A DNA stretch of 48,328 nt from Elusimicrobiota bacterium. GTDB taxonomy: Bacteria > Elusimicrobiota > Elusimicrobia > UBA1565 > UBA9628. The stretch spans positions 1 to 48,328 of the forward strand of contig JACQPJ010000028.1 of the NCBI GenBank assembly GCA_016207605.1. The letters run 5' to 3'. Position numbers and translations under genes: made by a program. Positions 19,107-47,841 of this stretch are shown here, piece by piece. Each line of letters begins with the position of its first letter. Within the stretch, counting starts at the first letter, position 1. A model generated the notes under the pieces. That model searched no databases. It was not told the origin of the DNA and saw only the letters and a program-made list of their open reading frames with translations.

Positions 19107-19353
19107 GCCGAAAGGCTCCGTCTCCCCGTCCGTTTCCGATTGCGGCGGCGGAGGGCGGGTCCGAAGGGCCTGCCGAGCGCCGCGCCGGCCCCCGGCGGCG
19201 CTAGATGCTATCACCCTTCCTCGACGCATCTGTGCCGAGCCCGCAGGGTCGAGGCCGAGGCCGTTCGGAGCGCGCCCTTCTGGGGCGCGCGTCCCGTAGG
19301 ACCCGCCCTCCGCCGCCGCGGCCCGCGCGGACGCAAGGACGGAGCCTTTCGGC
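19107..19353. repeat. long imperfect inverted repeat (fold-back structure) enclosing one CTAG element
   Basis: GCCGAAAGGCTCCGTC 19107-19122 pairs perfectly with 19338-19353; GCGGCGGCGGAGGGCGGGTCC 19142-19162 pairs perfectly with 19299-19319. Confidence 0.85.
19201..19259 (+). repeat. CTAG two-hairpin element, copy 1 (diverged 3' end)
   Basis: CTAGATGC TATCACCCTTCCTCGAC GCATCT GT GCCGAGCCCGCAGGGTCGAGGC CGAG. Confidence 0.8.
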
Positions 19354-19522
19354 GTCGGGCGAGGTCCCAGATTATCTAGGTCCTTTGGCCCCCCAGGATA
19401 TAGGACTAAGGACCCTGTTCCAGGCGCTGGAATCGTTATATGCTGGCCGTAATATTCTGGAAATCCGAATGGCGAGCCGCGCGGTGTACACTGTCGTCCG
19501 CAGCGCCAGCGGCTCAGAACAC

Positions 19523-22500
19523 ATGATCCCAGACCGGCGTTCGACTCGCGCCCCCGGCGCGGCCGCCCTCGCGGCCGCTCTCCTCGCGCTTCCCATCCTG
19601 GCCGCCGCGCAGTCCGTTCAGATCTCCGTCAACACGGCCTTCGTGGCTTTTGCTCGGGGCGGCACCCCGCCCAACTGCCGCTCCGTCACCTCCGGGGGCG
19701 CCCTGCAGTTCGTCTGCGACATCCCCACGAGCGTGCCCACGCCGCAGAACGGCTACATCTCCAACGACCCGCAGATCAACTTCTCCAACGCGGCCGAGGC
19801 GGCGGTCTGCGACGGGGCGGCGCTCACGCTCAACGCCGGCGACCACCGCAGGAACGTCTGCAACAACCAGGTCTTCTTCTGCGCCCAGGTCGTGGGCACG
19901 GCGCCCAGCGGCACCGCGGTGGGCATCGACCAGATCGAGTTCGAGCTGTTCAAGTTCCAGAACGGCTCCAATCCCCTCGACCCGGCCTCCACGCCGCCCC
20001 TGCGCACCTACTTCGTGGACGGACCGGGCGTCATCGCGGGGGCGGGCTCGACGCCGCAGTACGTCCCCAGCGACACGACGGCGTCCTGCGTGCTCTGGGA
20101 CGGCTCCTACAACATCCAGGGCCTCTTCGGCCGGACCAACGGCGAGTTCGGCTTCCGGGTCACCGTCCAGACCAACCAGAGCGGGACCTCGGCCGGCAAC
20201 GTCACCATCACCCAGACGCGGGCCTACCCCACCGGGACCACGGGCGACGTCAACGGCGTGAGCGTGGTCCAGAAGCCGGTCACCGTGGACGTCAGCGACG
20301 TGCACGCCGTCGTCTCCTCGCCCACCGTGGTCGGCCAGATCACGGGGGTCGCGGCGGAGCCCTACAACCTGGCCTACCGGCTCTCCCGGGACGCGACGAC
20401 TTACATCACGATCAACCAGTCGGCCTCCCCGTTCGGGACCCTGCGCAGCGTGGTCCCCGGCCTGCCGCGCGTGGGGGAGGGCGTGCCCGCCGGCACGCTG
20501 ACGAACGGAGACTCCTGGGACGGGCGCGACAACAACGGCAACATGCTCCCGCCGGGCAACTACCTGGCGGTGTTCCAGGCCCTCTCCTCCAACGAGTACG
20601 GCGCCGACCTCTCCCAGTCCACGACCTACCAGATAGCCCTCGACCCCCTGCAGATCACCGACCTGCGCGTTTCGCCGCTCTCCGGAGGCTCGACCTCCCT
20701 GGCCGTCCTCTCCTACCAGCTGACCGAGCCGGCCACGGTGTACCTGGACATCTACCCCCCAGGCACCCAGTTCTGCCCGGGCGCCGGCGACCAGGGCCTC
20801 AACGACGTCAACAACGCCGCCCACGACCCGGCTTTCGCCGGCGCGATCCCGGGCAAGAGCTTCGGCGCCCGCCAGGGCAGCTGCGCGACCGGCGCGGTCG
20901 TGCAGCCCCTGCGCGAGGTCGTCCAGCAGCAGGCCGCGCGCCAGTCCGTGCTCTCCTTCTGGGACGGACGCGACGCCTCCGGCATCTTGGTCGGCGACGG
21001 CGACTATGTGTTCGTCATCTATGCCTCCCTGCCGTCCCAGGCGGGGACCGCCTACGTCGCCAGCGCGCTGGACCGCAGGGTCTGGACCTCGACGGCCAAG
21101 ACCGGCTTCCTGTCCGTGCTGAGGGGCTTGGTCGGCATCACCCAGGTCACGCCGACGTCGATCGTCGTCGGCTCCAGCCCGGCCGTCGCGGGCCTCAACC
21201 CCTTCACTTTCCGCTACCAGCTCTCCCGCGAGGCGGTCGTGTCGATGAAGATATTCGACGCCACGGGCGGCACCGTGGTCAAGACGCTGATCAACCAGGA
21301 GACGCGGCCCGGCTCGCTGGGCCTCTCGGAGACCTGGTCGGACGCCACCGACGACAACGGCCGCACGGTGTCATCGGGCACCTACCTCGTCCAGCTGACC
21401 GCGACCGACCCCGCCTTTCCGGCCAAGGTCTCGACGACCACGGCCCTGTTCCCGGTGCACTTGTTCCGCATCACCGACGTGGCGGTCTCGCCGCTGCTCT
21501 CCGGCGCCTCCGAGCAGGTCACGCTGAACTACCAGCTCTCCCAAACCATGTTCACGGCCTGGAACGTCTATCCCCCGGGCTCCGTGGTCGTGGCGAGCAG
21601 CGCGACGTGGCCGCCCTGTCCCGCGCAGAGCCCGCCCAACGCCTGCACGAGCGCCTCGGTCCTCACGCCGGCCGGCGCGCCCGCCTCGCCCGTCATCACC
21701 TTCCGCGGCCTGCGCCCCGGCCGCTTGAGGATCTCCGAGTTCTGGGACGGCCGCGATCCCAACGGCATCTTCGTCCCCGACGGCAACTACGTCTTCACCC
21801 TCACGGCCCAGTCCACGACCACGCCCCAGCAGTTCGCCTCCGACCGGGTCTACGGCACGCTGACCATCGCGCGAGGCGCGATCGTCTTCACCAGCTTCAG
21901 CGTGGCCCCGACGGTGCCCACGCTCTTCAACTCCAGCAACACCATCACGCTGGACCCCTTCACCATCGCCTACACGGTCACGCGGCAGTCGTCGGTGACG
22001 GTCCAAATCCTGAGCACATCCCTGCCCCCGCAGGTCGTGCGCACGCTGGTCGCCGGAGCGGTGCGCGACGCCAGCGTCCTCCAGAACGAGGTCTGGGACG
22101 GCAAGGACGACCGGGGCAACTTCCCGCCGGCCGGCTTCTACACCGTGCGCACGGTGGCCCAGGACGTGGCCTCGGCGCTGTCCTCGGGCTCGACGGCCCA
22201 GACCACCGTCTCCTACGACCCCCTGCGCATCTACGACCTGGCGGTCACCCCTCTGCGCTCCGACAACCCCTCGGCGATCATCTCCTACCAAGTCTCGGAG
22301 CCGATGCGGGTCGCCATCAAGATCTACCGGCCGGGCACGACGTTCGACGCCGCCGGCAATCCCTCGACGCCCGACGCGCAGTCGCTGGTCCAGCGCATCG
22401 TGGGGCTGCGGCCGGGCCGCACGCAGATCCAGGACTTTTGGGACGGCCGCGACCTCAAGCGGGCCCTCCAGCCCGACGGCAACTACAAGTTCAAGATCGT

Positions 22501-22939
22501 GGCCTCCACCGATCCCGCCGCCCTGGACAGCATCACGGGCGACATCCTGATCCCGGGAGAGCTGGCCGCCGACCGCCTCATTGACGACTTGCCCGTCGCC
22601 GTCAACGGCTCGGTCGACCCCGGCGCCGACTTCGAGACCAACACCTTCGTCTACCCCAACCCGGTGAGCGGACCCTCCGGCACGTTCCAAATCTACGCGC
22701 CGTTCCAGGCGAACGTGACGCTGCGGCTCTACACCCTGTCGGGGACGCTGGTGTTCACCCGGGACTTCGGCTCGGTCCCGCCCGCCTTCCAGTCCGGCCC
22801 GGTCTCCTTCGTCTGGAGCAAGGTCAACCAGAGCGGCCGCCGCGTCGGGCGCGGCCTCTATTACGCCCTGATCCGGGCGGACGCGACGGACGGCAGCGGC
22901 AACATCCTGCAGACCGTCAAGAAGGTCCTGGTCCCGTGA
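19523..22939 (+). CDS. large secreted protein with tandem FlgD-Ig-like repeats and a C-terminal sorting-like domain
   Basis: Signal peptide from ATG 19523; repeated SWDGRDNNGNMLPPGNY / SFWDGRDASGILVGDGDY / EFWDGRDPNGIFVPDGNY / VWDGKDDRGNFPPAGFY / DFWDGRDLKRALQPDGNY; C-terminal YPNPVSGPSG...RRVGRGLYYALIRA. Confidence 0.85.
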   Translation: MIPDRRSTRAPGAAALAAALLALPILAAAQSVQISVNTAFVAFARGGTPPNCRSVTSGGALQFVCDIPTSVPTPQNGYISNDPQINFSNAAEAAVCDGAALTLNAGDHRRNVCNNQVFFCAQVVGTAPSGTAVGIDQIEFELFKFQNGSNPLDPASTPPLRTYFVDGPGVIAGAGSTPQYVPSDTTASCVLWDGSYNIQGLFGRTNGEFGFRVTVQTNQSGTSAGNVTITQTRAYPTGTTGDVNGVSVVQKPVTVDVSDVHAVVSSPTVVGQITGVAAEPYNLAYRLSRDATTYITINQSASPFGTLRSVVPGLPRVGEGVPAGTLTNGDSWDGRDNNGNMLPPGNYLAVFQALSSNEYGADLSQSTTYQIALDPLQITDLRVSPLSGGSTSLAVLSYQLTEPATVYLDIYPPGTQFCPGAGDQGLNDVNNAAHDPAFAGAIPGKSFGARQGSCATGAVVQPLREVVQQQAARQSVLSFWDGRDASGILVGDGDYVFVIYASLPSQAGTAYVASALDRRVWTSTAKTGFLSVLRGLVGITQVTPTSIVVGSSPAVAGLNPFTFRYQLSREAVVSMKIFDATGGTVVKTLINQETRPGSLGLSETWSDATDDNGRTVSSGTYLVQLTATDPAFPAKVSTTTALFPVHLFRITDVAVSPLLSGASEQVTLNYQLSQTMFTAWNVYPPGSVVVASSATWPPCPAQSPPNACTSASVLTPAGAPASPVITFRGLRPGRLRISEFWDGRDPNGIFVPDGNYVFTLTAQSTTTPQQFASDRVYGTLTIARGAIVFTSFSVAPTVPTLFNSSNTITLDPFTIAYTVTRQSSVTVQILSTSLPPQVVRTLVAGAVRDASVLQNEVWDGKDDRGNFPPAGFYTVRTVAQDVASALSSGSTAQTTVSYDPLRIYDLAVTPLRSDNPSAIISYQVSEPMRVAIKIYRPGTTFDAAGNPSTPDAQSLVQRIVGLRPGRTQIQDFWDGRDLKRALQPDGNYKFKIVASTDPAALDSITGDILIPGELAADRLIDDLPVAVNGSVDPGADFETNTFVYPNPVSGPSGTFQIYAPFQANVTLRLYTLSGTLVFTRDFGSVPPAFQSGPVSFVWSKVNQSGRRVGRGLYYALIRADATDGSGNILQTVKKVLVP

Positions 22940-24857: not shown

Positions 24858-24861
24858 GACA

Positions 24862-26380: not shown

Positions 26381-28696
26381 ATGCCCGAGCCGCTGACCCG
26401 CGCCGGCGCCTCCGCCTTCTCCCCCGTCCGGGAGCCCGGGCGGGTCGTTGCGTTCACGGGCCCCAAGGAGGGCGTGGGCAAGACCACGGCCTGCCTCAAC
26501 CTCGCCTTGGCCTGGGCCGGCAGCCAGAACAGCCGCAAGGTCGTCATCGTGCACATGGATCCCCTCTGCCGCAACGACCTCAGCTTCGTCCTCGGCCTCA
26601 ACCCGCCCTCCCTGGCCGGAATGGCCCAGATGGCGGGGGAGAACCCGACGGGGGGCCTCGGGCGCCTGCTCAAGGGCCGCATCCCGTTCTCCCAGTGGGG
26701 CGTGGGGCTGCTCCCGCTGGCCTCGACGCGCCAGGAGTTCCGCCGGCTTTCCCCGGACGTGGTGGTCAAGATCCTGGGCTCCCTGGCCGAGAGCTACGAC
26801 TTGTTCCTGGACGTCGATCCCTTCTTTCCGATGCAGATTTTCTCCTTCGACCTGGCCGACCTGGTCTACTGGATCTGCCTGCCCCAGCGCTCCCATTTCG
26901 AGGCGACCTACGCGCTGTTCAACGAGATCAAGGCCCTGCACTTCCCGCTCGAGAAGTTCGAGGTGGTCGTCAACCAGGCCAACCTCCCCGGCGCGCTGGC
27001 GCCCAAGGAGGTCGCGCGCTTTTTCAGCGCGATGCAGAAGGGCGTGCTCGCCTACATGCCCTGGGAGGACCTGATCCCCGAGTACGCCAACACCCAGAAG
27101 ATCCTCGTCGTCGAGCAGCTCCAGAGCGAGTGGGTCAAGGCCCTGCGCGTCCTGCTCGGGCGGACCCTGGAGCTCACGCCCTCGGTCAAGCAGTGGGAGA
27201 GCTTCCTCCAGCCCGAGGAGTTCGCCTCGTCGGCCGACCTCCTCTGGCGCCCGGCCGCGGCCCGCGCCGAGGCGGTCAAGACGCCCGCGCCGTCCTCGGC
27301 CCCCGTGCCCGACTTCTGGGACGAGCTCAAGACCAAGCTGCACAAGCTCGTCGTCGCGGCGATGGAGACCGAGCGCATCCGCATCTCCGACGACGCCAAG
27401 ATGAACGACGACAACCGCGCCAAGGTCTCGCACATCATCGAGAACCTCCTCCAGCGCGAGCAGAACCTCCCGCTGACCCGCGCCCAGCGCGAGCAGTTCA
27501 CGACCGAGCTCGTCGACGAGATCCTGGGCCTGGGCCCCCTGCAGCAGCTCCTGCGCGACCCCAGCGTCAACGAGATCATGGTCAACGCCTACGACAAGAT
27601 CTACATCGAGCGCAGCGGCCGCCTCCAGCTCCTGTCGGCGCGCTTTCGCAACGACGAGCAGGTCGTGCAGGTCATCAAGCGCATCGTGGCCCCGATCGGC
27701 CGCCGCATCGACGAGTCGACCCCGTTCGTGGACGCGCGCCTCAAGGACGGCTCGCGCGTCCACGCCATCATCGCGCCGCTGGCCCTCTCCGGCCCGACGC
27801 TGACCATCCGCCGCTTCTCGGCCACGCCCTTCACCCACGACCAGCTCGTCTCTTTCGGCTCCGTGCGGCCGGACATGGTCGAGTTCCTGCGCGCCGCGGT
27901 GATCACCAAGAAGAACATCCTCATCTCCGGCGGGACGGGCACCGGCAAGACCACGTTTCTCAACACGCTCTCCAACTTCATCCCCGACGACGAGCGCATC
28001 GTCACCGTGGAGGACACGGCCGAGCTCAAGCTCCTGGCCGAGCACTGGATCCGCCTGGAGTCGCGTCCGCCCAACATCGAGGGCAAGGGCGAGGTCAGCA
28101 TCCGCGACCTGGTCCGCAACTGCCTGCGCATGCGCCCGGATCGCATCGTCGTCGGCGAGTGCCGCGGCGGCGAGGCCCTGGACATGCTCCAGGCCATGAA
28201 CACCGGCCACGAGGGCTCCCTGGCCACCCTGCACGCCAACACGCCCTCCGACGCTGTCTCGCGCCTGTCGGCGATGTGTCTAATGTCGGGCACGGACCTG
28301 CCGATGGGCGTGCTGATCGACATGATCGCCAGCGCGGTCAACCTGTTCGTGCAGATCACGCGCTTTCCAGACGGGCGCCGCCGCGTCACCTGGGTCACGG
28401 AGTGCGTGGGCCGCGAGGGTGCGGCGATCCTCACCCGGAACATCTTCCGCTTCGTGCAGACCCACGTGGATGCCAAGGGGACCAGCTACGGCTACTTCAC
28501 CGCCTGCGACCACGTCCCGCGCTTCTACGACGAGTTCAAGCTCAAGGGCCTGGAGATCCCCAAGGATCTCTTCGTCAGCGAGCGGACCAAGAAGGCCCGG
28601 GGCCTGCCCAACGCGATCGATGCGCTTCTCAAGCAGGGCATTCCCGTTCCCGCCGACGCCGAGTCCCTGGCCGAGGCGGCCGGAGGGGGGCGATGA
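26381..28696 (+). CDS. fusion of CpaE/TadZ-like MinD-type ATPase and CpaF/TadA secretion ATPase
   Basis: N-terminal GPKEGVGKTTACLNLALAWAG...LDVDPFFPM; C-terminal LVDEILGLGPLQQLLRDPSVNEIMVN...ISGGTGTGKTTFLNTLSNFIPDDERIVTVEDTAEL...LRMRPDRIVVGECRGGEALDMLQAMNTGHEGSLATLHAN. Confidence 0.92.
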   Translation: MPEPLTRAGASAFSPVREPGRVVAFTGPKEGVGKTTACLNLALAWAGSQNSRKVVIVHMDPLCRNDLSFVLGLNPPSLAGMAQMAGENPTGGLGRLLKGRIPFSQWGVGLLPLASTRQEFRRLSPDVVVKILGSLAESYDLFLDVDPFFPMQIFSFDLADLVYWICLPQRSHFEATYALFNEIKALHFPLEKFEVVVNQANLPGALAPKEVARFFSAMQKGVLAYMPWEDLIPEYANTQKILVVEQLQSEWVKALRVLLGRTLELTPSVKQWESFLQPEEFASSADLLWRPAAARAEAVKTPAPSSAPVPDFWDELKTKLHKLVVAAMETERIRISDDAKMNDDNRAKVSHIIENLLQREQNLPLTRAQREQFTTELVDEILGLGPLQQLLRDPSVNEIMVNAYDKIYIERSGRLQLLSARFRNDEQVVQVIKRIVAPIGRRIDESTPFVDARLKDGSRVHAIIAPLALSGPTLTIRRFSATPFTHDQLVSFGSVRPDMVEFLRAAVITKKNILISGGTGTGKTTFLNTLSNFIPDDERIVTVEDTAELKLLAEHWIRLESRPPNIEGKGEVSIRDLVRNCLRMRPDRIVVGECRGGEALDMLQAMNTGHEGSLATLHANTPSDAVSRLSAMCLMSGTDLPMGVLIDMIASAVNLFVQITRFPDGRRRVTWVTECVGREGAAILTRNIFRFVQTHVDAKGTSYGYFTACDHVPRFYDEFKLKGLEIPKDLFVSERTKKARGLPNAIDALLKQGIPVPADAESLAEAAGGGR

Positions 28697-30234
28697 GGCC
28701 GTTCGCGCCGGCCGCGGCCCTGCTTCTGGCGGCCGCCGCCGCCGGGAGCGCGGCCGCCCAGCAGGTTTTAAGCCCCGCCGACGTCGCCTTCCTCTTCGGC
28801 GAGCGCAATGCCCGCAATGAGATCGTCCGCGAGGGCGCCGAGGACCGGATCCAGACCTTCTATCACTACTTCAACAAGGACCGCGACGCGCGCGTCGCCC
28901 CCCCCGCCTGGGTCGACAAGACGCTCGACGCCATGCTGCGCCATCCCGTCTGGCAGGACCCGGACCAAGGCATCCTCAACGAGGCCCAGCTCTGGCAGTC
29001 GCCCGCGTCCGTCCTCTACGAGTTCCTCGAGCTGGTGCGCCGGAGCCTGCCGCCCGCCGCGGGCGGCCAGTCCCTGCCTCCCGCCGATCTCCTGCGCGAG
29101 TACGAGGACGGCCGCGTGCGCTTCCAGATCTCGCTCGACCGGCTGACGCGCGCGCGCCTGCAGGGCTCCCTCGGCGGCCGGGGCCGCGCCGTTTTGGCCT
29201 CCTTCGGCCTCATCGACAGGCAGATGGAGAGCGCCATCAGCGCTCTGGTCGCCGGCGACGCCCCGCGCTGGCGCGGCGCGGTGCTGGCCGTGGGCGCCCT
29301 CTCGGACGGGGCGTTCGCCGCGCTGCAGGCTCCGCCGCGCGGCTACGCGCCCGCCGCGCCGGCCCGCCGCCCCTCGCCGTGGGCGATGCTGCTTCTGCCC
29401 TGCGGGGTCGGCGCGGCCTTCCTGACGGCCTATCTCCTCGGCGCGCTCAACGACGAGAGGCTGCAGGCGGGCCTGGACCGCTACCGGGCCAAGGCCAAGG
29501 AGTGGGCCCACGAGTACGAGCGCCAGTTCGTCGCCGTGCGCATCCACTACCTCGTCGGCGCTCCGATCGCGCTGGGAGTGATCGTCGGCGCGCTCACGCT
29601 CGATCCCATCGGCTTCCTCATTTTCGCGGCGTTCGGCCTCCTGGCGGGGCTGCGCCTGCCCGGCTGGCTCCTGCGCAACATCCGCCTGCGCCGCGGCCAG
29701 CAGTGCGAGGCCCAGCTCATGGACGCCATGATCCTGATGTCGAACGGGCTCAAGTCCGGCGTCGACCTCGTCGGCTGCATCGAGATGGTCACCAAGGACC
29801 TCCAGCCCCCCATTTCGGAGGAGTTCGGGCTCTGCCTCAAGAACTACCACCTGGGCACCAAGCTCGAGAACGCGCTCGAAGGCGTCGAGGAGCGCGTGCA
29901 GAGCCGGCTTCTCTCCTATATGATCAAGGCGGTCGTCATCCAGCGCTCCGTCGGCGGCAACCTCACCAAGATCTTCGACCGCATCGTCGAGAACATCCGC
30001 GAGGAGTCGAAACTGGTCGAGAAGACCGCGGCCATGACGGCCCAGCAGCGCATCCAGGCCATCGTGGTCGGCGTCATGCCCTGGATCATGCTGCTGATCA
30101 TGTTCGCTTTCCAGCCGGGGCCCATGAAGGAGTTCTACTTCACGCCCCTGGGCGCGGCGACTTTGGTGTTCTGCACGATCTGGATCTCCATCGGCATGCG
30201 CATCGTCAACGCGCTGGGAGACGTGAGCGTCTAG
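28693..30234 (+). CDS. tadB: TadB-like T2SSF inner-membrane protein with N-terminal extracytoplasmic domain
   Basis: Signal-like N-terminus; LMDAMILMSNGLKSGVDLVGCIEMVTKDLQPPISEEFGLCLKNYHLGTKLENALEGVEERV. Confidence 0.85.
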   Translation: MRPFAPAAALLLAAAAAGSAAAQQVLSPADVAFLFGERNARNEIVREGAEDRIQTFYHYFNKDRDARVAPPAWVDKTLDAMLRHPVWQDPDQGILNEAQLWQSPASVLYEFLELVRRSLPPAAGGQSLPPADLLREYEDGRVRFQISLDRLTRARLQGSLGGRGRAVLASFGLIDRQMESAISALVAGDAPRWRGAVLAVGALSDGAFAALQAPPRGYAPAAPARRPSPWAMLLLPCGVGAAFLTAYLLGALNDERLQAGLDRYRAKAKEWAHEYERQFVAVRIHYLVGAPIALGVIVGALTLDPIGFLIFAAFGLLAGLRLPGWLLRNIRLRRGQQCEAQLMDAMILMSNGLKSGVDLVGCIEMVTKDLQPPISEEFGLCLKNYHLGTKLENALEGVEERVQSRLLSYMIKAVVIQRSVGGNLTKIFDRIVENIREESKLVEKTAAMTAQQRIQAIVVGVMPWIMLLIMFAFQPGPMKEFYFTPLGAATLVFCTIWISIGMRIVNALGDVSV

Positions 30235-30246
30235 ATGCTATGAACC
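30231..30246 (+). repeat. possible 5' fragment of the CTAG element
   Basis: CTAGATGCTATGAACC matches the 5' end of the 33573 copy (CTAGGTGTTATGAACC) at 14/16; supplies tadB stop TAG and tadC start ATG. Confidence 0.45.
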
Positions 30247-31142
30247 TCGACCTCCAGCCCTACCTCCTGTTCGTGGTCGGCTTCCTGGGCTCGATGGCCT
30301 GCTACGTGACGGTCAGCCGCCTGCTCGCCCCTCCGGCCGCGGCGGACGCCGCGGACCTCTCCGCGCTCGCCGCGCGTCCGGTCGGGACCACCTCCGCCTT
30401 CTCCAGCCTCAATCCGCACGGGGACTTCCTCGACCAGCTCGATCTCTTCCTGCTGCGCACCTTCCACCTCGACGTCCGGCTCGAGGAGCTGCACATGCTG
30501 ATGGGCCGGCCCTCCCACCCCACGCCGCTGCGCATGCTGCGCTACAAGGAGATCGGCGCGCTGGTTTTCGGGGCGGGGGCGGTCCTGGCCACCGGAGAGT
30601 GGTTCCTGGCCCTCTTGGCCCTCCTTGGCTTCCTGATCCCCGACTTGCTCTATTCCGCCCGCATCCGCGCGCGCCAGGCCGTCATCATGCGCAACTTCCC
30701 CACGGCCGTGGACCTGCTCGCGCTCACGATCGAGGCGGGCCTCGACTACATGTCGGCCATCGAGCGCATACTCAAAAACGTCCCGGCGGCCCAGCGCACC
30801 GAGCTCGAGAAGGAGCTCGAAAAGACCCTCAACGAGGTCGCGCTCGGCTACTCGCGCCGTGACGCGCTCAAGCGCCTGGCCCTGCGCACGGGCCTGCCCG
30901 AGGTCCGCTCCTTCGTCGGCCTCATCGTCCAGTCCGACGAGCTGGGCACCAGCCTCGTCGACCTTCTGCGCAACTACGCCGCCGACCTGCGCTTTCGCCG
31001 TCTCAACCGCGCCGAGAAGCTGGCGGCCAAGGCCTCGACCAAGATGCTCTTCCCGCTCTTCATTTTCATCTTCCCGACGGTGTTCATCCTGATGCTGGCG
31101 CCCTTGGCCAGGAGTCTGTTCCAGGGAGGCTTGGGCTTCTGA
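30240..31142 (+). CDS. tadC: TadC-like T2SSF protein
   Basis: ARQAVIMRNFPTAVDLLALTIEAGLDYMSAIERILKN...EVRSFVGLIVQSDELGTSLVDLLRNYAADLRFRRLNRAEKLAAKASTKMLFPL. Confidence 0.88.
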   Translation: MNLDLQPYLLFVVGFLGSMACYVTVSRLLAPPAAADAADLSALAARPVGTTSAFSSLNPHGDFLDQLDLFLLRTFHLDVRLEELHMLMGRPSHPTPLRMLRYKEIGALVFGAGAVLATGEWFLALLALLGFLIPDLLYSARIRARQAVIMRNFPTAVDLLALTIEAGLDYMSAIERILKNVPAAQRTELEKELEKTLNEVALGYSRRDALKRLALRTGLPEVRSFVGLIVQSDELGTSLVDLLRNYAADLRFRRLNRAEKLAAKASTKMLFPLFIFIFPTVFILMLAPLARSLFQGGLGF

Positions 31143-32458
31143 TGCGCCCCGCGACCCGCGCCGGCCTGGCCGCCCTCGCCCTCCTCGCCGGGGCCGCCGG
31201 CGCGCGCGCGCAGGAGGCCGCCAAGGTCCGCGACGCCGAGGCGGCCTTCCTGGGCATGTCCAAGCTCAACCTGGGGGCGATCTCCTCCGACGAGGACCGC
31301 AAGTACCTCTACACGATCCAACTGGAGAAGGCGCGCTTGACGCGGCGCACGCTGCGCGGAATCTACGAGAACGCCTTCGACCTCTACCGCTCCGGCCAGT
31401 TCGAGGCCGCCAACGAGCTCACGCGCCGCATCCTCGCCATCGATCCCGGCTACGAGGACGCCGCCGTCCTCCATCGCGCGACCCTGGACCTCAAGGGCGC
31501 CTCCAAGCCCATGGCCTCGGAGCGCCGCCTGCTCGACGACCGCTTCGAGGAGGGGCTGGCCCTCTACCGCCAGGGTCGCCTGGTCGAGGCCGCCCAGCGC
31601 TGGGACGAGGTCGTCAAGCTCTCGCCCACCAACTTCAAGGCTCGCTACTGGCTGCGCAAGGCCCGCGGGGAGCTGGCCGCGGAGCACGTCGCCCGCGGGC
31701 GCAAGGCCTACGCCCAGCATCGCTTGCGCGAGACGCTCGACCAGTGGTACGCGGCCCTGGTGCTCAACCCCCGCTACCCGGGCTTGACCCGGGACATCGC
31801 CAAGGTCGAGGCCGAGGCGCGCGAGCAGGACGCCAACGAGAAGCTCCAGACGGCGCTCAACCTTTACAGCCAGGGGCGGGTCGTGGAGTCCCTGCGGACG
31901 CTCGACGCGGCCCTGGAGGTCGTCCCCGGCAACGTGAAGGCCCAGAAGCTCCAGGCCGAGATTCGCGCCGAGGTCGCCAACCAGCACGTCGCCGAGGGCC
32001 GCCGCCTCTACGAGGAGCGCCGCTACGACGAGGCGGTCAAGGAGTGGAAGCAGGCCGTCGCGTTCGGCTTCAGCCCCAAGGCGGCCGACCAGCTCGTCGC
32101 GCGCGCCCGGGAGGCCGCCCGCCGCGAGGAGGCCGAGCGCCGCCGCGCCGCCGAGCTGGCCCAGAAGCGGGCCGAGGAGGCCAAGCAGCTCAAGGAGGAG
32201 CAAGCCGCGGCCGACGCCAAGAAGAAGGAGGAGGAGCAGAAGGCGGCCGCGGCCGCCGCGCCCTCCGCCGCGGCCGCCGCCGACACGGCCCGGCAGCAGT
32301 CCCAGCAGGCCTACTTGGCGGGCGTGATCTTCTTCCAGAAGGGCGACTACGAGAAGGCGCGCGACAGCTGGCTGCGCGCCAAGCAGCTCGACCCCTCCAA
32401 CTCGGACGCGGCCGCGGGCCTCGAGAAGATCGAACAGCTCTACGGAGGCGGCCGGTGA
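31142..32458 (+). CDS. TPR-repeat secreted/periplasmic protein of the Tad locus
   Basis: Signal peptide and several TPR units (FDLYRSGQFEAANELTRRILAIDPGYEDA; LALYRQGRLVEAAQRWDEVVKLSPTNFKA), K/E-rich linker, final TPR. Confidence 0.8.
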   Translation: MRPATRAGLAALALLAGAAGARAQEAAKVRDAEAAFLGMSKLNLGAISSDEDRKYLYTIQLEKARLTRRTLRGIYENAFDLYRSGQFEAANELTRRILAIDPGYEDAAVLHRATLDLKGASKPMASERRLLDDRFEEGLALYRQGRLVEAAQRWDEVVKLSPTNFKARYWLRKARGELAAEHVARGRKAYAQHRLRETLDQWYAALVLNPRYPGLTRDIAKVEAEAREQDANEKLQTALNLYSQGRVVESLRTLDAALEVVPGNVKAQKLQAEIRAEVANQHVAEGRRLYEERRYDEAVKEWKQAVAFGFSPKAADQLVARAREAARREEAERRRAAELAQKRAEEAKQLKEEQAAADAKKKEEEQKAAAAAAPSAAAAADTARQQSQQAYLAGVIFFQKGDYEKARDSWLRAKQLDPSNSDAAAGLEKIEQLYGGGR

Positions 32459-33576
32459 AGCTCTCCGCGAAGTGGTTCTTGTGGTTCACCGGCATCGGCG
32501 TGTACGTGATGTGCCTGGGGGGGATTTTCTACTACAACCTCTTCAAGTGGACCTTCGACGAGAAGCTCAAGCAGGAATCCATCGACATGGTCCGCCTTTA
32601 CGCGCCGACGCTGGTGGAGGGCCTCTCGCGCAGCCCCGGCGCCATCAGCATGCCCGAGCTCGACATCGTGATGCGCTTCTCCAAGGACGACCGCGTCGCC
32701 TCGCTCCTCTATTTCAACAAGTACGGGGAGGTGCGCTGGTTCAAGGACCCGTCCCTGATCACCAAGTCCTATGAGGACTTCACCCGCCAGGTGGACCTGC
32801 CCACCCATGCCGTCCAGGAGGCCATGGCCGCCAAGACCCCCGTGGTGCGGCCCGTGCCCAACGCGCCCCTCTACGACATCGCCATCCCGCTGGCCCTGCG
32901 CGGGGACGTCCTGGGCCTGCTGGACCTCCAGGTCAGCCGGGCGGGCGTCGTCGCGGTCATCCAAAAGGCCATGTACAAGTACGCCGTGGGCGCGGTCGGC
33001 GTCCTGCTCCTGCTGGGCATCCCCCTCTACTTCTTCCTGCACAACTTCGTCATCAGCCCCCTGCTCAACCTCCGCGACGCGGTCGAGTCCATCTCCTTCA
33101 AGAGCCTGGAGCTCAAGGCCGCCCCGCGCGGCGACGAGGTCGGCGAGCTGGCCTCCGCGCTGTCCATCTTCCTGTCCAAGGTCAAGGCCGAGATCGCCAA
33201 CGCGATGGCCAAGGAGAAGCAGCGCGGCGCGGCCGAGGCGCGCTGGTGGGAGGCGATCCTGCGCGCCGTCGTGGCCAAGAACCACCGCGCCATCGTGGTG
33301 GACGAGGACAACACCGTCCTCTACGCCAACTTCCCGCTGGGCGCCGCCGCGGCTCCGGAGGCCAAGCTCCACCTTCTCGACGTCATCGACAGCCAGCAGC
33401 AGGACGTCCTGCGCCTGGTGAGCGCGGCTCTTGACCGCCCCAACCAGCTCGTCGAGGCCGACACAACCTTCCGCTCCGAGCCCTGCCACGTCCGCGCCGT
33501 CCACCTCGACGATGACGGCGACGCCAAGCGCACGCTGATCCTCTTCGAGCCCAAGGCCGTCGGCGCGCGGTCCTAG
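32455..33576 (+). CDS. membrane sensor protein with HAMP and PAS-like domain, no kinase domain
   Basis: GTG start; two TM segments, HAMP-like region FVISPLLNLRDAVESISFKSLELKAAPRGDEVGELASALSIF, PAS-like HRAIVVDEDNTVLYANFPL. Confidence 0.7.
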   Translation: MKLSAKWFLWFTGIGVYVMCLGGIFYYNLFKWTFDEKLKQESIDMVRLYAPTLVEGLSRSPGAISMPELDIVMRFSKDDRVASLLYFNKYGEVRWFKDPSLITKSYEDFTRQVDLPTHAVQEAMAAKTPVVRPVPNAPLYDIAIPLALRGDVLGLLDLQVSRAGVVAVIQKAMYKYAVGAVGVLLLLGIPLYFFLHNFVISPLLNLRDAVESISFKSLELKAAPRGDEVGELASALSIFLSKVKAEIANAMAKEKQRGAAEARWWEAILRAVVAKNHRAIVVDEDNTVLYANFPLGAAAAPEAKLHLLDVIDSQQQDVLRLVSAALDRPNQLVEADTTFRSEPCHVRAVHLDDDGDAKRTLILFEPKAVGARS

Positions 33577-33632
33577 GTGTTATGAACCATTCCTCAACAC
33601 ACCTGTGCCGCGTCCGCAGGATCGCGGCCTAG
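33573..33632 (+). repeat. CTAG two-hairpin element, copy 2
   Basis: CTAGGTGT TATGAACCATTCCTCAAC ACACCT GT GCCGCGTCCGCAGGATCGCGGC CTAG. Confidence 0.9.
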
Positions 33633-34626: not shown

Positions 34627-35027
34627 GCCCAGCCGCCTCGCTGAGCGTCCAGGTACTCACGCACGACGTAGAGGTCGCTGACCTGACCCGAGACCATTCG
34701 CCTCAACGCCGACTTGCCCCCGAAGATCGGTGCGTCGTTGTTTTTTTTGATCCAGGTGTCGGCCGCCTCTGCGTTGGGGAGCAGAATGTTGAGCGCCTTG
34801 AAGATGCCTAGGATGTAGGAAATGCGTTCGAGGGTATCCAGACCCAGGCGCCCATCTTGGTCCTGTTTCCACTTGAAGAACGTCGATCTCGCCGTGATGC
34901 CCAACAGCTTCATCTGTTCTTCCACGTTCAGGTCCCAGCGCTCTGCGATCCTGAAAAACGTCCTGAGCGCCGGACCCGACGAGGTCCTCGGATCAACCTT
35001 CTTGCCCGTCACGGTTGCGGTGGCCAT
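34623..35027 (-). CDS. Xre/MbcA/ParS-like antitoxin
   Basis: HTH plus DUF2384-like C-terminus: ERWDLNVEEQMKLLGITARSTFFKWKQDQDGRLGLDTLERISYILGIFKALNILLPNAEAADTWIKKNNDAPIFGGKSALRRMVSG; SD GGAGGGAGG before ATG 35027. Confidence 0.88.
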   Translation of the reverse strand: MATATVTGKKVDPRTSSGPALRTFFRIAERWDLNVEEQMKLLGITARSTFFKWKQDQDGRLGLDTLERISYILGIFKALNILLPNAEAADTWIKKNNDAPIFGGKSALRRMVSGQVSDLYVVREYLDAQRGGWA

Positions 35028-35062
35028 TGTGCCTCCCTCCGAGCATCGTTCCATCGAGTGAT

Positions 35063-35685: not shown

Positions 35686-38577
35686 CTAGCGCGCGCGTCG
35701 GACCCGGGCGCGGCCGTTTCCGCGCCCGCCTCCGCCGCGAGCCTTGCCGCCGCCCGCGCGGCCGCCGCGCGGAGCCTTGGCCTGCGCCTCCGACTTTTGA
35801 TCCCGCGCCATCTGCGCGTAGAGACCGCCCTCGTCGGCCAGAAGGTCCCGGTGCGAGCCCTGTTGCGCGATCTTTTCCCGGTCAAGGACGTAGACCGTGT
35901 CCGCCCACCGGTTGGTCGCGAAGCGGTGCGTGATCATCAGGATGGTGCTTCGGCCGCGGAGGGCGCGCAGAGCGCGCATCACCCGCGCCTGCGACGGGGC
36001 GTCGAGCGCCGAGGTCGGCTCGTCGAGGATGATCAGGCGGTAGGGGTTGGCCGGATCAACGAAGAGGCGGGCCAGGAGGAGGCGCTGGGCCTGGCCTCCG
36101 GACAGGCCGGTCCCATCGGAGGGGATGTCTCGGGCGTAGCCGAGCCGGGTGATGTCGCGATGGAGCCCGGGGTCGGCGCCTTCCAGGGCCTCGATGACCT
36201 CGTCCAAGCGGGCGTCGGAGCCGCCCGCGACGTTGGCGAAGACGCTGAGGCCGTCGTCGGGCGCCTCGTCCCGCGGACCTTCGCGCCCGCGCTCCCGGAG
36301 ATGGCGACGCAGATGCTCCCGCGCCTTCGGGACGGCGGCGCGTACGCGGGCGATCAGCGCGTTCTCCTCTCGCTGCCGCGCCGTCCGGCCGGGGAGAGGC
36401 CGCAGGCCGCGCTCGTAGCCGAACCGCACGACCTCCCGGTGGAGCCCGACTAGCTCCGCGGCGGCCCAGACGGCTTCCTCGGAGGCGTCGGGACGCTGCC
36501 AGCGCAGGTTGCTGAGGATGGTGCCGAGAAACGGGGTCGCGCCCTGCAGCACGAGCCCGATGCTGCGCCGCAGGTCCCGGCGCGCCAGCGTCCCGACGTC
36601 CTGGCCGTTGACGGCGATCCGGCCCTCGAAGGGGAAGAGCCGGAGCAGGGCGTGGATGACGGAGCTTTTCCCCGTGCCGCTGCGGCCCACCAGCGCGGTG
36701 AACGACCCCGCCGGGAGCGTCATGTCGAGGCCGTCGAGGACCGCGGGGCCGTTGGGGACGTAGCGGAACTTGACGCCTTGGAGCTCGACGGTCCAGCCGC
36801 CCTCGGCGGACGGAGCCGGGGCGCCGCGGCCGTCGTCCTCGGGATTTTCCCGCCGCAGGACGTCGAACCGGGCCGCGGCGCCGCTGATCGAGCGCAGGGA
36901 GAAGAAGACGCCGGCCAGGGTGTTGACGGCGGGGGAGAACACGCCGCAGGCCAGGAAGAGGTAGGCCGTGGCCAGCCACACGGGCAGGCCGTGGAACAGG
37001 GCGAAGCCGAAGATCGTCATCGCGACGAGGACCTCCGCCAGGTCGGGCAGGCTGACGGTGAGGACGTAATGCGGGACGGCGGCCTTGGCGATCTCCTCGC
37101 CGCCCCGCCGGTGGAACTGCCGGCTCAACGCGCGCTGCTCCTCGAGCATGTCGTCTTCCTTGCCGCTGGCCTTGATGATGTGGATGTCCTGCATCATGCG
37201 CGTCAGGAACCGGACCAGCCGCGGCTGGTGTTCGCCGAAGTAGGCGGCGTAGGCGGCGTTGATGCGCTGGCCGTACCTGACCGTCGGCAGGGCGAGCGTC
37301 AGCACCAGCGCCGGCCCCACGAAGGCCGTCATCATCGGGCTGATCCAGACCATGGCGCCCAGGCTCAGCCCGGCCATCAGACCGAACTTGGCCGTCTTGA
37401 CCACGGCGTTGGTGGCCCCCTCCTGCACTTGGAACAGGCTCTGGGTCGTGAGGGAGACCAGGTCGCTCTTGCCGCTGCCGTGGTGATAGCTCAGGGGCAG
37501 GGAGATCGAGTGCCGGGCGAGGAAATTGACGAGCCCTTCCTGGGTCTTGTTGCTGATGTCGTACAGGAGATACGGGTAGCGGTAGTCGGCGGCCGCGCGC
37601 AGGCAGGAGAGGAGGATGGACAGGCCGCCCAGGCCCAGCGCCGCCCACAGGGCCGGGCTGCCCGCGGCGTCGGCCCAGGAGAGGGGATCGGGGGCCGCCT
37701 GCTTGAGCCGCATGAAGTTCTGCAGCATCTGCCCCCATAGGAAGGGGCGCAGGAAGGACAGCAGGGCCACGGCCAGCCCCAGCTTGGAGGCCTTCGCCAA
37801 CTCCGCCTTGACCGGGATCCCGTAGGAGAAGACGTCGCGCCAGAAGGAGCGCACCCAGGCGACGTCGCCGCGCAGGGTCCGCCATTGCTCGCGGACCGGG
37901 CTCGGGACCGCGCGCGCCGCCAAGCGCGAAAGCCGGAGACGAGGGACGGGGCGGCCGCGCGCCGGTTCAAGCGCCGGCGCGCGTTCCGGGCTTGCCGGCG
38001 GCCGCGCGGCGCTCGCGCTCGGAGCGTCGGTCCCGGCGTCCTCGCCGCCGCGCTCGGCGCCGACGTCGTAAACGCCGCGCAGAACAGCGCCGCGGGGCAG
38101 GGCGCCGCTCCCGTCGCGCCTGAAAGCGGCGGCGCGGCGGGCGTCGCCCAAAGCGTTGGGCCGGCGCCGGCGGCGCAAGACGTTCCAGACGGTTCCAAAA
38201 GCCCCCGCGGCCCAGCGGCGCGCCCAGTGCGCGGAGCTTTTGGGGGTTGGGCGCCGGGCGGCCGCGCGCAGAACGCGGCCGGCGGCCCCGATCTGGGCGG
38301 CGTCGCGGGAGAAGCCCGCGGGTGCCGCGCCCAGCGCGGGAAGTCCGGCCAACGCCAGGGAGGCGTCGAAAGCGAGGGAGACTTCCGGTGCCGAGGCTGG
38401 CGCGTCCAGGAGCTCCAGCGGCATGGGCGCGGAAGCCTCCGGCCTTGCGGCTGGGGTCTCCGCGGTGATGGAGGCGAGCGCGGGCGCGGAGGGGGAGGCC
38501 GAGGACAGGACCAAGGCCAGGCAGACGAGGACGGCGACACGCGGGACCAGGCGGGACGGGGAATGGAACGCGGGCAC
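35686..38577 (-). CDS. type I ABC exporter (fused TMD-NBD) with secretion-signal-like Ala/Pro-rich N-terminal extension
   Basis: Walker A LVGRSGTGKSS, signature GLSGGQAQRLLLARLF, Walker B LIILDEPTSALDAPSQ, H-loop MITHR; exporter TM region; N-terminal PRVAVLVCLALVLSSASPSAPALA. Confidence 0.88.
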   Translation of the reverse strand: MPAFHSPSRLVPRVAVLVCLALVLSSASPSAPALASITAETPAARPEASAPMPLELLDAPASAPEVSLAFDASLALAGLPALGAAPAGFSRDAAQIGAAGRVLRAAARRPTPKSSAHWARRWAAGAFGTVWNVLRRRRRPNALGDARRAAAFRRDGSGALPRGAVLRGVYDVGAERGGEDAGTDAPSASAARPPASPERAPALEPARGRPVPRLRLSRLAARAVPSPVREQWRTLRGDVAWVRSFWRDVFSYGIPVKAELAKASKLGLAVALLSFLRPFLWGQMLQNFMRLKQAAPDPLSWADAAGSPALWAALGLGGLSILLSCLRAAADYRYPYLLYDISNKTQEGLVNFLARHSISLPLSYHHGSGKSDLVSLTTQSLFQVQEGATNAVVKTAKFGLMAGLSLGAMVWISPMMTAFVGPALVLTLALPTVRYGQRINAAYAAYFGEHQPRLVRFLTRMMQDIHIIKASGKEDDMLEEQRALSRQFHRRGGEEIAKAAVPHYVLTVSLPDLAEVLVAMTIFGFALFHGLPVWLATAYLFLACGVFSPAVNTLAGVFFSLRSISGAAARFDVLRRENPEDDGRGAPAPSAEGGWTVELQGVKFRYVPNGPAVLDGLDMTLPAGSFTALVGRSGTGKSSVIHALLRLFPFEGRIAVNGQDVGTLARRDLRRSIGLVLQGATPFLGTILSNLRWQRPDASEEAVWAAAELVGLHREVVRFGYERGLRPLPGRTARQREENALIARVRAAVPKAREHLRRHLRERGREGPRDEAPDDGLSVFANVAGGSDARLDEVIEALEGADPGLHRDITRLGYARDIPSDGTGLSGGQAQRLLLARLFVDPANPYRLIILDEPTSALDAPSQARVMRALRALRGRSTILMITHRFATNRWADTVYVLDREKIAQQGSHRDLLADEGGLYAQMARDQKSEAQAKAPRGGRAGGGKARGGGGRGNGRARVRRAR

Positions 38578-38852
38578 GGAGCAGACCCCCCCTCGGAGGA
38601 GATTTTGGATTTTGATCGCTCGGCCGTGGACCGGACTGGGCCGCTCAAGGCGGCGTCACCGTTGCGGGGCAGCCCCGGAGTCTCACCGGGTTCCTCGACG
38701 ACAAGCGCTTGCGCAAAGAGCCGAGGCGACTGTACTAATTTTACATCCGGCTTCGCCAAGTGTCCACGCTGCTTCTTCCAGTTGCGTCGGCGGCCCGCTT
38801 CTGTTAAGCTTGTCTGGCCTCGGACGGCCTCAGCTTCTCCCAGGAGACAGCA

Positions 38853-40097: not shown

Positions 40098-40481
40098 ATG
40101 ACCCCCCTGCCCAAGCTGCTCGTCATCGACGACGACGCCCACCTGCGCGAGAGCCTCGCCGAGGTCCTGGAGCTCGGCGGTTTCGAGTGCCACCAGGCCG
40201 GGAACGCCAAGGACGGCCTGGCCGCCGCGCAGAAGCTCTCGCCCGACGCCGTGATCATGGACATCCAGCTTCCGGACTCCTCCGGGTTCCAGATCTGCCA
40301 GGAGCTGCGCCGCCGCTCCAAGACCATGATCCTGATCATGATGACCGGCCGCTTCCTCTCCTCGGAGGAGAAGACCCAGGGCTTCGAGCTCGGCGCCGAC
40401 GAGTACATCACCAAGCCCTTCGACCTCGCCGAGCTGTCGACGCGCATCCGCCAGCTCCTGTCGCGCAACGCGGCGCGCTAG
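40098..40481 (+). CDS. stand-alone response regulator receiver protein
   Basis: LLVIDDDAHLRESLAEVLELGG...DAVIMDIQLPDSSG...MMTGR...GADEYITKPFD; stop TAG lies in the CTAG element. Confidence 0.92.
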   Translation: MTPLPKLLVIDDDAHLRESLAEVLELGGFECHQAGNAKDGLAAAQKLSPDAVIMDIQLPDSSGFQICQELRRRSKTMILIMMTGRFLSSEEKTQGFELGADEYITKPFDLAELSTRIRQLLSRNAAR

Positions 40482-40537
40482 ACGCTATGCGGCTTTCCTC
40501 AGCGCGTCTGTGCCGCGCCCGAAGGGTCGCGGCCTAG
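40478..40537 (+). repeat. CTAG two-hairpin element, copy 3
   Basis: CTAGACGC TATGCGGCTTTCCTCAGC GCGTCT GT GCCGCGCCCGAAGGGTCGCGGC CTAG. Confidence 0.92.
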
Positions 40538-43655: not shown

Positions 43656-44330
43656 ATGGCAGGCTTGAAGAAGAAGGTGCGGGTCCTGATCGCCGACGAT
43701 CAGACCTTGTTCCGGGAGGGCATCAAGGACCTCCTGGAGAACGAGAGGCTCATCGAGGTGATCGGGGAGGCCGCGGACGGCCAGGAGGCCGTGCGCCTGG
43801 CCAAGAAGCTGCGTCCCGACGTGATCCTGATGGACATCAAGCTGCCCCAGCTCGACGGGGTCGCCGCCACCCGGCTCATCCGCCGGGAATGCCCCGACGC
43901 CAACGTGCTCATCCTGTCCTCTTACGAGGACGAGGCCCACGTCATGGAGTCCATCCAGGCCGGGGCCAACGGCTACCTCTCCAAGATGCTCCCCGCCGCC
44001 GAGCTGGTCAACGCCCTCAAGGCCTTCGCCAACGACGGCGTGATGATCCCCCAGCAGGTCATGAGCAAGCTCCTGGAAGGCCTGCGCCAGATGTCCTCGG
44101 TCCAGAGTCCGTCCCCGGTGGCCCTCACCAAGACCGAGATCCGCGTCCTGGTCCTGCTCGGCTCCGGCCTCTCCAACAAGGAGATCGCCAACACGCTGCA
44201 CTCCTCGGTCAAGACCATCAAGAACCACCTCAACGCCGTCTTCCAGAAGCTGGGGGTCAACAACCGCACCGAGGCGGTCGTCAAGGGCATCGAGATGGGC
44301 CTCATCTCGCCCGACGAGTCCGACAGCTAG
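43656..44330 (+). CDS. NarL/FixJ-family response regulator
   Basis: RVLIADDQTLFREGIKDLLE...DVILMDIKLPQLDGVAATR...GANGYLSK; LuxR HTH LTKTEIRVLVLLGSGLSNKEIANTLHSSVKTIKNHLNAVFQKLGVNNRTEAV. Confidence 0.95.
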   Translation: MAGLKKKVRVLIADDQTLFREGIKDLLENERLIEVIGEAADGQEAVRLAKKLRPDVILMDIKLPQLDGVAATRLIRRECPDANVLILSSYEDEAHVMESIQAGANGYLSKMLPAAELVNALKAFANDGVMIPQQVMSKLLEGLRQMSSVQSPSPVALTKTEIRVLVLLGSGLSNKEIANTLHSSVKTIKNHLNAVFQKLGVNNRTEAVVKGIEMGLISPDESDS

Positions 44331-44387
44331 ATGCTGCCAGGCTCTCCTCTGCCGCATCTGTGCCGCGCCCGAAGGGTCGCGGCCTAG
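44327..44387 (+). repeat. CTAG two-hairpin element, copy 4
   Basis: CTAGATGC TGCCAGGCTCTCCTCTGCC GCATCT GT GCCGCGCCCGAAGGGTCGCGGC CTAG. Confidence 0.92.
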
Positions 44388-46001: not shown

Positions 46002-46096
46002 CCTCCGTTCTTATACGCTTTGCCCCTGCCGGAAGTTCCCTTGAATGACGCGCGCGGGCCCTTGATTTTCCGGCGGGGCGGGGCCATAATTCCGGC

Positions 46097-47203
46097 ATGA
46101 GCCCGCGGGACCCCCGGCGCGGTCAGATCGTTCTGCCCGCCCTGCTGATCTTTCCGGCGCTGCTGCTGTTTGTCTACCTCATCTACGAGACGGCCAAGCT
46201 CTCGCGCGAGAAGATTCGCCACCAGTTCGCGATGGACGCGGCCGTCTTCGTGGAGATGGCCAACTACTCCGACTTCCTCAACCGCACCGCCTACGTCAAC
46301 GGGGCCTTCCCGATGCGCATCTTCCAGGAGGGCTACGCCGACTTCCCGGCCGAGTGCGAGGGCAAGTGGGACCAGTGCCAAAAGACCACCTACGCCGAGA
46401 TCCTCTACAAAAACGGCGCCTTTCCCCGCAGCGCCGGCGACCCCGGCAAGGTCGCCTACGACGACGAGGGGGTCTGGGACATCCGCTACGGCGGCGCCGG
46501 CGCGGGCAAGAACTCCTCCCCGCCCCAGCTCTCGGAGCCCTTCGCGCTCTTCACCCTCGACGACGCCAACCACTACTGGCACTCCTACCCCCTGGCCACC
46601 GAGATCTACAAGCTCTACCGCCAGGTCTACTCCCTGCTCGGCCAGGTCGAGGACGCCCAGCTCACCGTGCTCAAGCGCCTCTCCGCGGACCGCAACTTCC
46701 TCTCCAAGTCCTACTGGCTCAACACCGGCGACCCGCTCCAGGACGGCGTCGAGCTGGGCCGCCGCTTCGACGTGAGCCTGGGCAACTTCATGGGGGACGT
46801 CCAGCCCGTCTGCCTGCGCGCGCTGACCTACTGCGGCAACAAGGATCTCGGCGGCGGCGGCATCCAGCCCTTCGCCCCCCACTGCACCGACCCGCCCGTC
46901 GCGCTCGACACCTCGCCGGGCTGCAGCCAGGGTCTCTTCCAGCTCATGCACGTGGAGCCGCGCGCCATCGGCCGCCTGCGCGATTCCAACGGGGAGGGCT
47001 ACCCCGGCCTGTCGCTGAGCATGAACTGGGCCGTGCCCGCGGGCAACTACTGGAACGTTGATTTCGCCGGGCCGGGGCTCTTCGGCACGCCCAGCGGCAA
47101 GCCGGAGCTGCACACCACCATCTCGCTGGCGGGCGACCCCGCGGCGCGCCCCGCGGTCTGGCCCGACCCGACGCCCAAGTTCCAGGTGCGCCAGTTCCCA
47201 TGA
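46097..47203 (+). CDS. TadG-like pilus-associated protein
   Basis: PRRGQIVLPALLIFPALLLFVYLIYETAKLSREKIRHQFAMDAAVFVEMANYSDFLNRTAYVNGAFPMRIF: N-terminal TM followed by TadG-like region. Confidence 0.6.
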   Translation: MSPRDPRRGQIVLPALLIFPALLLFVYLIYETAKLSREKIRHQFAMDAAVFVEMANYSDFLNRTAYVNGAFPMRIFQEGYADFPAECEGKWDQCQKTTYAEILYKNGAFPRSAGDPGKVAYDDEGVWDIRYGGAGAGKNSSPPQLSEPFALFTLDDANHYWHSYPLATEIYKLYRQVYSLLGQVEDAQLTVLKRLSADRNFLSKSYWLNTGDPLQDGVELGRRFDVSLGNFMGDVQPVCLRALTYCGNKDLGGGGIQPFAPHCTDPPVALDTSPGCSQGLFQLMHVEPRAIGRLRDSNGEGYPGLSLSMNWAVPAGNYWNVDFAGPGLFGTPSGKPELHTTISLAGDPAARPAVWPDPTPKFQVRQFP

Positions 47204-47841
47204 GACCCCGGAACTGTGTGCCGCGTCCTCAGGATCGCGGCCTAGGCGCTATGAGGCTTTCCTCCGCTGCGCCTGTGCCGCGTCCTCAGGATCGCGGCCA
47301 GGCCACCACGGAGACGGTGCTCCTGTTCCCGCTCTTCATGTTCTTCCTCTTCGCCTTCGTCAAGATCTTCGCCCTGCTCGTGCTGGTTCAGCGCATCGAG
47401 ATCGCGTCCTTCTACGCCGCGCGGCGCTGGCAGCTCGAGTCGCACCGCAACGTCCTGCACGAGGGCTGGGACGACAGCGCCCTGCGCTCCAGCATCCAGG
47501 AGAAGGTCCTGGACTTCATCGGCTACGAGGGCTCCGTCTCCAAGGACGCGGAGTCCTTCCTGGGCCTGACCACCCAGTGCAGCGACGGCAGCACGGTGGG
47601 CGTCTCGGTCCAGCGCGCCGAGATCTGGCAGGTGGTAAGCGTGGTCGCCTGCCTGCGCCCCTTGAGCATGCCCTTCTACAAGGCGCCGGGCTTCGTGTTC
47701 CGGGCCACCAAGTACGTGCCCAATCGCGACCGCCCCATCGCCTTCATCCTGCCCGGCCTCCAGGACAAGAAGACCCCGACCTCGGGCGGCAACAAGGCTC
47801 CGGAGGGCGGGGACGACTCGGGCGGCTCTTCCGAGGATTAA
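47200..47841 (+). CDS. TadE-like protein with N-terminus built from CTAG elements
   Basis: MRPRNCVPRPQDRGLGAMRLSSAAPVPRPQDRGQATTETVLLFPLFMFFLFAFVKIFALLVLVQRIEIASFYAARRW; GQATTETVLLFPL is the TadE-type TM start. Confidence 0.65.
   Translation: MRPRNCVPRPQDRGLGAMRLSSAAPVPRPQDRGQATTETVLLFPLFMFFLFAFVKIFALLVLVQRIEIASFYAARRWQLESHRNVLHEGWDDSALRSSIQEKVLDFIGYEGSVSKDAESFLGLTTQCSDGSTVGVSVQRAEIWQVVSVVACLRPLSMPFYKAPGFVFRATKYVPNRDRPIAFILPGLQDKKTPTSGGNKAPEGGDDSGGSSED
47214..47302 (+). repeat. CTAG two-hairpin elements in tandem: partial copy (hairpin 2) sharing CTAG with full copy 5
   Basis: (TGTGCCGCGTCCTCAGGATCGCGGC) CTAG GCGC TATGAGGCTTTCCTCCGCT GCGCCT GT GCCGCGTCCTCAGGATCGCGGC CAGG. Confidence 0.9.

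Follow-up and report, generated by a model that had tools for sequence, protein, structure and literature searches.

Copies of the repeat in the window

The window is a stretch of 48,328 nucleotides from an Elusimicrobiota bacterium (contig JACQPJ010000028.1), in which a short repeat bounded by CTAG is dispersed on the plus strand. Its five full copies lie exactly at the coordinates given in the original prediction, and its second hairpin (hairpin 2) has a pattern that occurs five times in the window and not once in 100 dinucleotide shuffles. Copy 1 (19201..19259, +) starts 117 bp past the stop codon of tsaD (18076-19083) and carries a hairpin 2 of the GA/GA type. The following three copies begin in stop codons: the TAG at 33574-33576 in copy 2 (33573..33632, +) closes the gene 32455-33576, the TAG at 40479-40481 in copy 3 (40478..40537, +) closes a response-regulator gene (40098-40481), and the TAG at 44328-44330 in copy 4 (44327..44387, +) closes a LuxR-type response-regulator gene (about 43656-44330). 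Copy 5 (47242..47302, +) is adjoined on its 5' side by a 5'-truncated copy consisting of hairpin 2 only (47214..47241, +), with one CTAG in common; this half copy was also present as claimed. Concerning the ends, the right CTAG is intact in only three of the five copies, having decayed to CGAG in copy 1 and to CAGG in copy 5.

There is also a solitary 5' fragment, CTAGATGCTATGAACCT (30231..30247, +), which was suspected beforehand and matches exactly the first 17 bases of the element copies. The gene 28693-30234 terminates at the TAG of this fragment, and the gene that follows (type II secretion F-type) was called from an ATG at 30240 within it, so that the start codon of this gene may derive from a remnant of the element.

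Structure and compensatory changes

The three compensatory pairs in stem 1 and the one in hairpin 2 that had been read from the five window copies were recovered. In these copies, 97.5% of the structure cells pair, and the value falls to 31-46% when the partners are slid by 1-3 columns. RNA folding returned the two-hairpin structure in four of the five. The exception under standard energies is copy 1, because two symmetric C-to-A changes in its hairpin 2 (GCCGAG..CGAGGC) replace two C-G pairs with tandem G-A mismatches. This form is the commonest one genome-wide, where GA/GA (CGAG/CGAG) was found 47 times, GC/GC 42 times and the mixed form only 7 times, so that both positions change together. 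Tandem sheared G-A pairs in the context 5'-CGAG/CGAG are favourable in single-strand helices.

The same structure is kept in the relatives, where 96.2% of the cells pair across 103 copies and double changes occur at 13 of the 16 pairs (219 cells), in both hairpins; the covariation score was equalled by none of 500 shuffles. The four inner pairs of stem 1 differ from copy to copy with the pairing kept. Hairpin 2 is often near-uniform inside one genome (for example, GCCGGGCGTCTCGCGCCCGGC in G014), and it shows a bulged T in some genomes and a perfect palindrome in others. These data show a unit able to fold as a single strand, with two hairpins kept by compensatory changes.

Extent and distribution

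A covariance model built from the five window copies was used to scan the host assembly (G000; 1.44 Mb, 60 contigs, 75% complete) at E below 0.001. The original prediction would have been refuted if no copies existed beyond those in the window; the scan instead returned about 105 matches, that is, around 100 copies in the genome, and several host contigs end inside an element. Among the relatives, copies occur through most of the genus, with 1 to 23 per genome. A broader covariance model, applied to a sample of the phylum Elusimicrobiota, gave matches in 16 of 295 genomes, all of one family. Public records with the exact hairpin-2 pattern are almost all named Elusimicrobia; a Phycisphaerales record (L139) that matches this pattern scored only 24 bits with the full model and was set aside as doubtful. 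No match was found in the viral contigs and plasmids searched, the phages searched gave one weak partial match (E = 0.03), and no Rfam 15 covariance model matched the element.

Insertion at CTAG and growth of arrays

Empty and filled sites were found at the same gene junctions. Between khpA and trmD, the empty site of a relative (G005) reads ATCGA-CTAG-ATGCGCATCGAC and the host reads CTAG-[3 elements]-CTAG-ATGCGCATCGAC, being otherwise as in the relative, with 169 bp (57+56+56) added after the CTAG. Between hyfE and hyfF, the empty site of G193 is CGA-CTAG-CATGATCTACC, and G129 carries one element there with both flanks unchanged; the site is also filled in G018, G020 and G021. The net gain per insertion is 56-57 bp, one CTAG included, which is also the spacing of the tandem copies that have one CTAG in common. 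A further host copy lies between rplP and rpmC, and identical copies are found at different loci. The arrays mix subtypes, and therefore they have grown by insertion of different copies and not by slippage. Altogether, these sites show that insertion occurs exactly at CTAG and adds 56-57 bp (net), with CTAG left on both sides, and that new copies insert beside old ones with a CTAG in common. We regard insertion at CTAG as very likely. No base preference was seen before CTAG, and a target longer than CTAG, with a flank matching the left arm of the element, was not significant (p = 0.12, element remnants excluded).

The presence of CTAG on both sides, together with the single CTAG of the empty site, resembles a 4-bp target duplication, as would be expected from a miniature element of a DDE transposon. 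This account is the least probable of those considered here: the ends ATGCTATGAG and GGATCGCGGC are not inverted repeats of each other, as those of a DDE MITE would be, and some relatives have GTAG on the right with CTAG on the left, a combination that target duplication would not give.

As a separate observation, the elements at hyfE-hyfF (L340-L344) occur in four genera, with stem-1 arms that differ and are still paired. In G018, the hyf proteins are much more similar to those of other genera than to those of its own genus, which suggests that the hyf operon may have been transferred together with its element.

Gene context and orientation

Genes were called with a codon model trained on the window genes with Pfam hits and then iterated. 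Out of 80 arrays or single copies, 44 have their left end in the stop codon of an upstream sense gene and 12 have their right end in that of an antisense gene; in 10, a sense gene starts directly at the right CTAG. Within 734 kb (51% of the genome), 79 genes end in CTAG and 27 of these stops are occupied, 23 in sense to the gene and 4 in antisense. Insertions at CTAG sites within genes are very rare (77 such sites are unoccupied), as would be expected if gene disruption is selected against. A TAG stop codon with C before it is thus a very frequent target, and it is because of this that the genome tolerates 100 insertions, some of them in ribosomal operons, with its genes unbroken.

The original prediction described the copies as sense to the preceding gene. 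This is true of every copy in the window and is a strong bias, not a rule, genome-wide (58 to 14); at stop-codon sites the bias is 44 to 12 (binomial p = 2e-5). Orientation showed no correspondence with the regional gene direction and follows that of the adjacent gene instead. An account based on the lagging strand, which would predict the regional direction, was rejected for this reason. The sense orientation could come from transcription-dependent exposure of one strand or from selection against the other orientation.

That orientation tracks the transcription of the adjacent gene and not the regional strand would also be expected if a transcribed element entered the sense strand of messages or displaced DNA as RNA and was copied back. 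We consider such RNA-mediated insertion highly improbable, since no reverse transcriptase was found in the 75% complete host assembly, its presence in four of the 22 genomes searched shows no relation to the copies, and the unit comprises 56 bases with no known intron-like core.

Away from stop codons, the left end is kept in 29 of 35 cases and the right end in 31 of 58, which could reflect either selective maintenance of stem 1 or imprecise cutting on the right side. This difference is among the observations that agree with a cis-acting structured RNA of gene ends (a terminator, a 3'-end stabiliser or a translation element), selected as such, whose mobility would be incidental or past. The same applies to the sense bias, both overall and at stop codons, to the stem-1 arms that vary between copies and stay paired, and to the differing, paired arms of the hyfE-hyfF elements in four genera. 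Nevertheless, the clean empty sites and the serial arrays show insertion, no Rfam model matches, and there is no U-tract; moreover, copies interrupt the essential operons rplP-rpmC and khpA-trmD and are immediately followed there by a gene start, which speaks against a strong terminator. Hence, a structured RNA is an unlikely explanation. The original prediction had offered it as an alternative at gene boundaries; it is not needed for the placement of the copies, but an inserted copy may have an effect as RNA.

With regard to hairpin 2, the GA type was present in 10 of the 14 host copies with a sense gene just after the right CTAG versus 20 of 55 (p = 0.03, G000), and the GA-type junction ..CGAGGCCTAG-ATG is a possible ribosome binding site. 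This association is weak and one among several tests, and a ribosome-binding role was not relied on.

A guide-like trinucleotide and the proposed mechanism

Most copies have CTG as the trinucleotide preceding the foot of hairpin 2, and its pairing with the TAG of the left CTAG forms the outer part of stem 1. In copy 3, the candidate guide CTG (40508..40510, +), recognised from the sequence and from the covariation in relatives, is directly 5' of hairpin 2 (40512-40533); its pairing partner is the TAG of the left end, and pairing with the TAG of the right CTAG would also be feasible. In the relatives, 28 copies have a left tetranucleotide other than CTAG, and in 27 of them it pairs with an altered trinucleotide of the same copy: CTAA with TTG (13), CTGG with CCG (9), CTGC with GCG (2), CTGA with TCG (1) and two others. 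The trinucleotide was placed from the arm and the foot of hairpin 2, with no use of the tetranucleotide. The left tetranucleotide therefore covaries with an internal trinucleotide located just 5' of hairpin 2.

The right end behaves differently. Pairing of the guide-like trinucleotide with the right TAG is also possible and would extend hairpin 2, but the right tetranucleotide is only loosely tied to it. Positions 35/58, next to the trinucleotide at the foot of hairpin 2, are T-C in 73 copies and C-G in 17, and it is where they are C-G that some relatives have GTAG on the right with the left end still CTAG. This pattern fits a left target that would come from the host and a right end that would be carried by the element, by analogy with IS608. 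The covariation may be read in two ways. Either the target was selected by the guide, or a mutation of the stop codon came first and the guide followed; the second would amount to stem upkeep after insertion, because the pairing of the trinucleotide with the left site belongs to stem 1.

In the mechanism that we propose, the element would move as single-stranded DNA with the help of an HUH-type transposase (IS200/IS605 or REP-like) acting in trans. The enzyme would bind hairpin 2, the CTG trinucleotide would serve as a guide that recognises the 5'-CTAG target through base pairing, and the right CTAG would belong to the element itself as its end. Cleavage would take place 3' of both tetranucleotides, and the unit would be joined to the 3' side of another CTAG. 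We infer this guided HUH-type mechanism with slightly better than even confidence. Points against it are that no gene for such an enzyme was found in the 75% complete assembly, that plain lagging-strand insertion does not predict the observed orientation, that stem upkeep could account for the covariation on the left, and that the guide and the right tetranucleotide are only loosely linked. A more specific version is possible, though with fairly low probability: a 56-base element carrying its own guide, retargeted by guide mutation (CTAG, CTAA, CTGA, CTGG, CTGC), moved by an enzyme that does not belong to the known Y1 families and inserted along transcription. Three of these five targets contain a stop codon, and such an element would spread by landing harmlessly at gene ends.

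Search for a mobilising enzyme

A RAYT/Y1 transposase had been put forward as a possible mobiliser, its gene to be looked for next to a copy. Y1_Tnp had no match in the host assembly (75% complete), was not found beside the tested copies and is absent from the other copy-bearing genomes G008, G013 and G014. Genes for Y1_Tnp are common in the relatives (proteins of 250-320 aa with an HFH motif), but no element lies within about 1.5 kb of the 20 Y1 loci of relatives, and no match to the left or right end of the element was found around these genes. The element is REP-type in kind, as predicted, being dispersed and mobile, with a single-strand fold, a tetranucleotide tag and precise insertion at CTAG; membership of the REP/RAYT group is unsupported.

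Other families gave a similar picture. Neither Y2 genes nor a reverse transcriptase was found in the 75% complete host assembly, and the Y1, Y2 and reverse-transcriptase genes of the relatives have no element nearby. A scan of 798 called genes for the HUH motif gave seven motif matches, none transposase-like. None of the Y1, Y2, reverse-transcriptase and tyrosine-recombinase families tracks with the copies, and none was retained as the mobiliser. The absence of an enzyme is weak evidence, because the assembly lacks 25% of the genome and is interrupted at repeats.

Tyrosine recombinases deserve separate mention, since the host genome has five Phage_integrase matches and integron attC sites are likewise folded, asymmetric single-strand substrates. 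The element might thus be a folded recombination site moved by a host enzyme of this class. However, Phage_integrase enzymes are present in every relative, with or without copies, and the common boundary of the element is a 4-bp palindrome with no conserved attC boxes, so that this possibility appears very unlikely.

Comparison with known systems

The copies make up a new, non-autonomous family of very small mobile elements, similar to REPs and PATEs. Like the REPs and BIMEs of the REP/RAYT systems, it is a short palindromic repeat in high copy, dispersed, foldable, mostly intergenic, often tandem, placed at gene 3' ends and tagged by a tetranucleotide, which is CTAG and not GTAG. GTAG REPs also lie at 3' ends and often give flanking ORFs a TAG stop codon (PMC3733652), and therefore the stop-codon habit is not unique to the element. 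Furthermore, E. coli REPs carry a bulge and another REP group is perfectly palindromic (PMC8266576), and both forms are present in the hairpin 2 of the element. On the other hand, the element has two different hairpins in fixed direct order instead of a REP with an inverted REP, it has CTAG at both ends with insertion into a pre-existing CTAG, and no RAYT was found in its host or beside the tested copies.

The PATEs of Haloquadratum have no terminal inverted repeats, contain near-terminal palindromes and are too short for a transposase (PMC3119063). The element is also non-coding, with no terminal inverted repeats and with subterminal palindromes, judging by its sequence and fold. It differs in being much shorter and tied to CTAG stop codons, and PATE palindromes match resident IS605-type transposons whereas no such partner was found for the element.

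In IS608, insertion takes place 3' of a tetranucleotide in the left flank, which is selected by a guide 5' of the hairpin (PMC5934647). The element resembles IS200/IS605 members in inserting 3' of a tetranucleotide that is kept on the left, with the right end carried by the element. Its candidate guide 5' of a hairpin covaries strongly with the left tetranucleotide, which target choice and later stem upkeep would explain alike. Unlike IS200/IS605 members, it has no tnpA or tnpB, a single apparent guide would serve the two ends in place of one guide for each, and the left pairing extends into a 7-bp stem.

Helitron and IS91-type ends have a hairpin just before a CTAG-like 3' end. The hairpin of the element, just before its 3' CTAG, is comparable, but no Y2 was found in the host, and its CTAG doubles as the target and remains on the left.

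In the open-licence literature, no description was found of this family, of its insertion at CTAG as demonstrated by empty sites, or of a natural covariation of a site tetranucleotide with an internal guide. The spread of REPs and other tiny palindromes has so far been unproven because clean insertions are hard to see. The element offers empty and filled sites, serial arrays, a defined target and a readable candidate guide, so that pairing between guide and target, and perhaps retargeting, can be followed in natural sequences. If the mobilising enzyme is found, the system could be tested in vitro with 60-base oligonucleotides.

Other features of the window

A cobalamin riboswitch (38605-38740, -), above the gathering score, lies upstream of a large minus-strand gene (35686-38577) with ABC-transporter domains. 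A RES-domain protein (33931-34626, -) has a small ORF directly upstream (34623-35054), and the arrangement at 33931-35054 (-) resembles a RES/Xre toxin-antitoxin pair with a putative partner. Finally, the large protein encoded at 19385-22939 has a FlgD Ig-like domain and a weak match to the type IX secretion signal (CHU_C), and it is predicted to belong to the FlgD_ig/CHU_C class of surface proteins.
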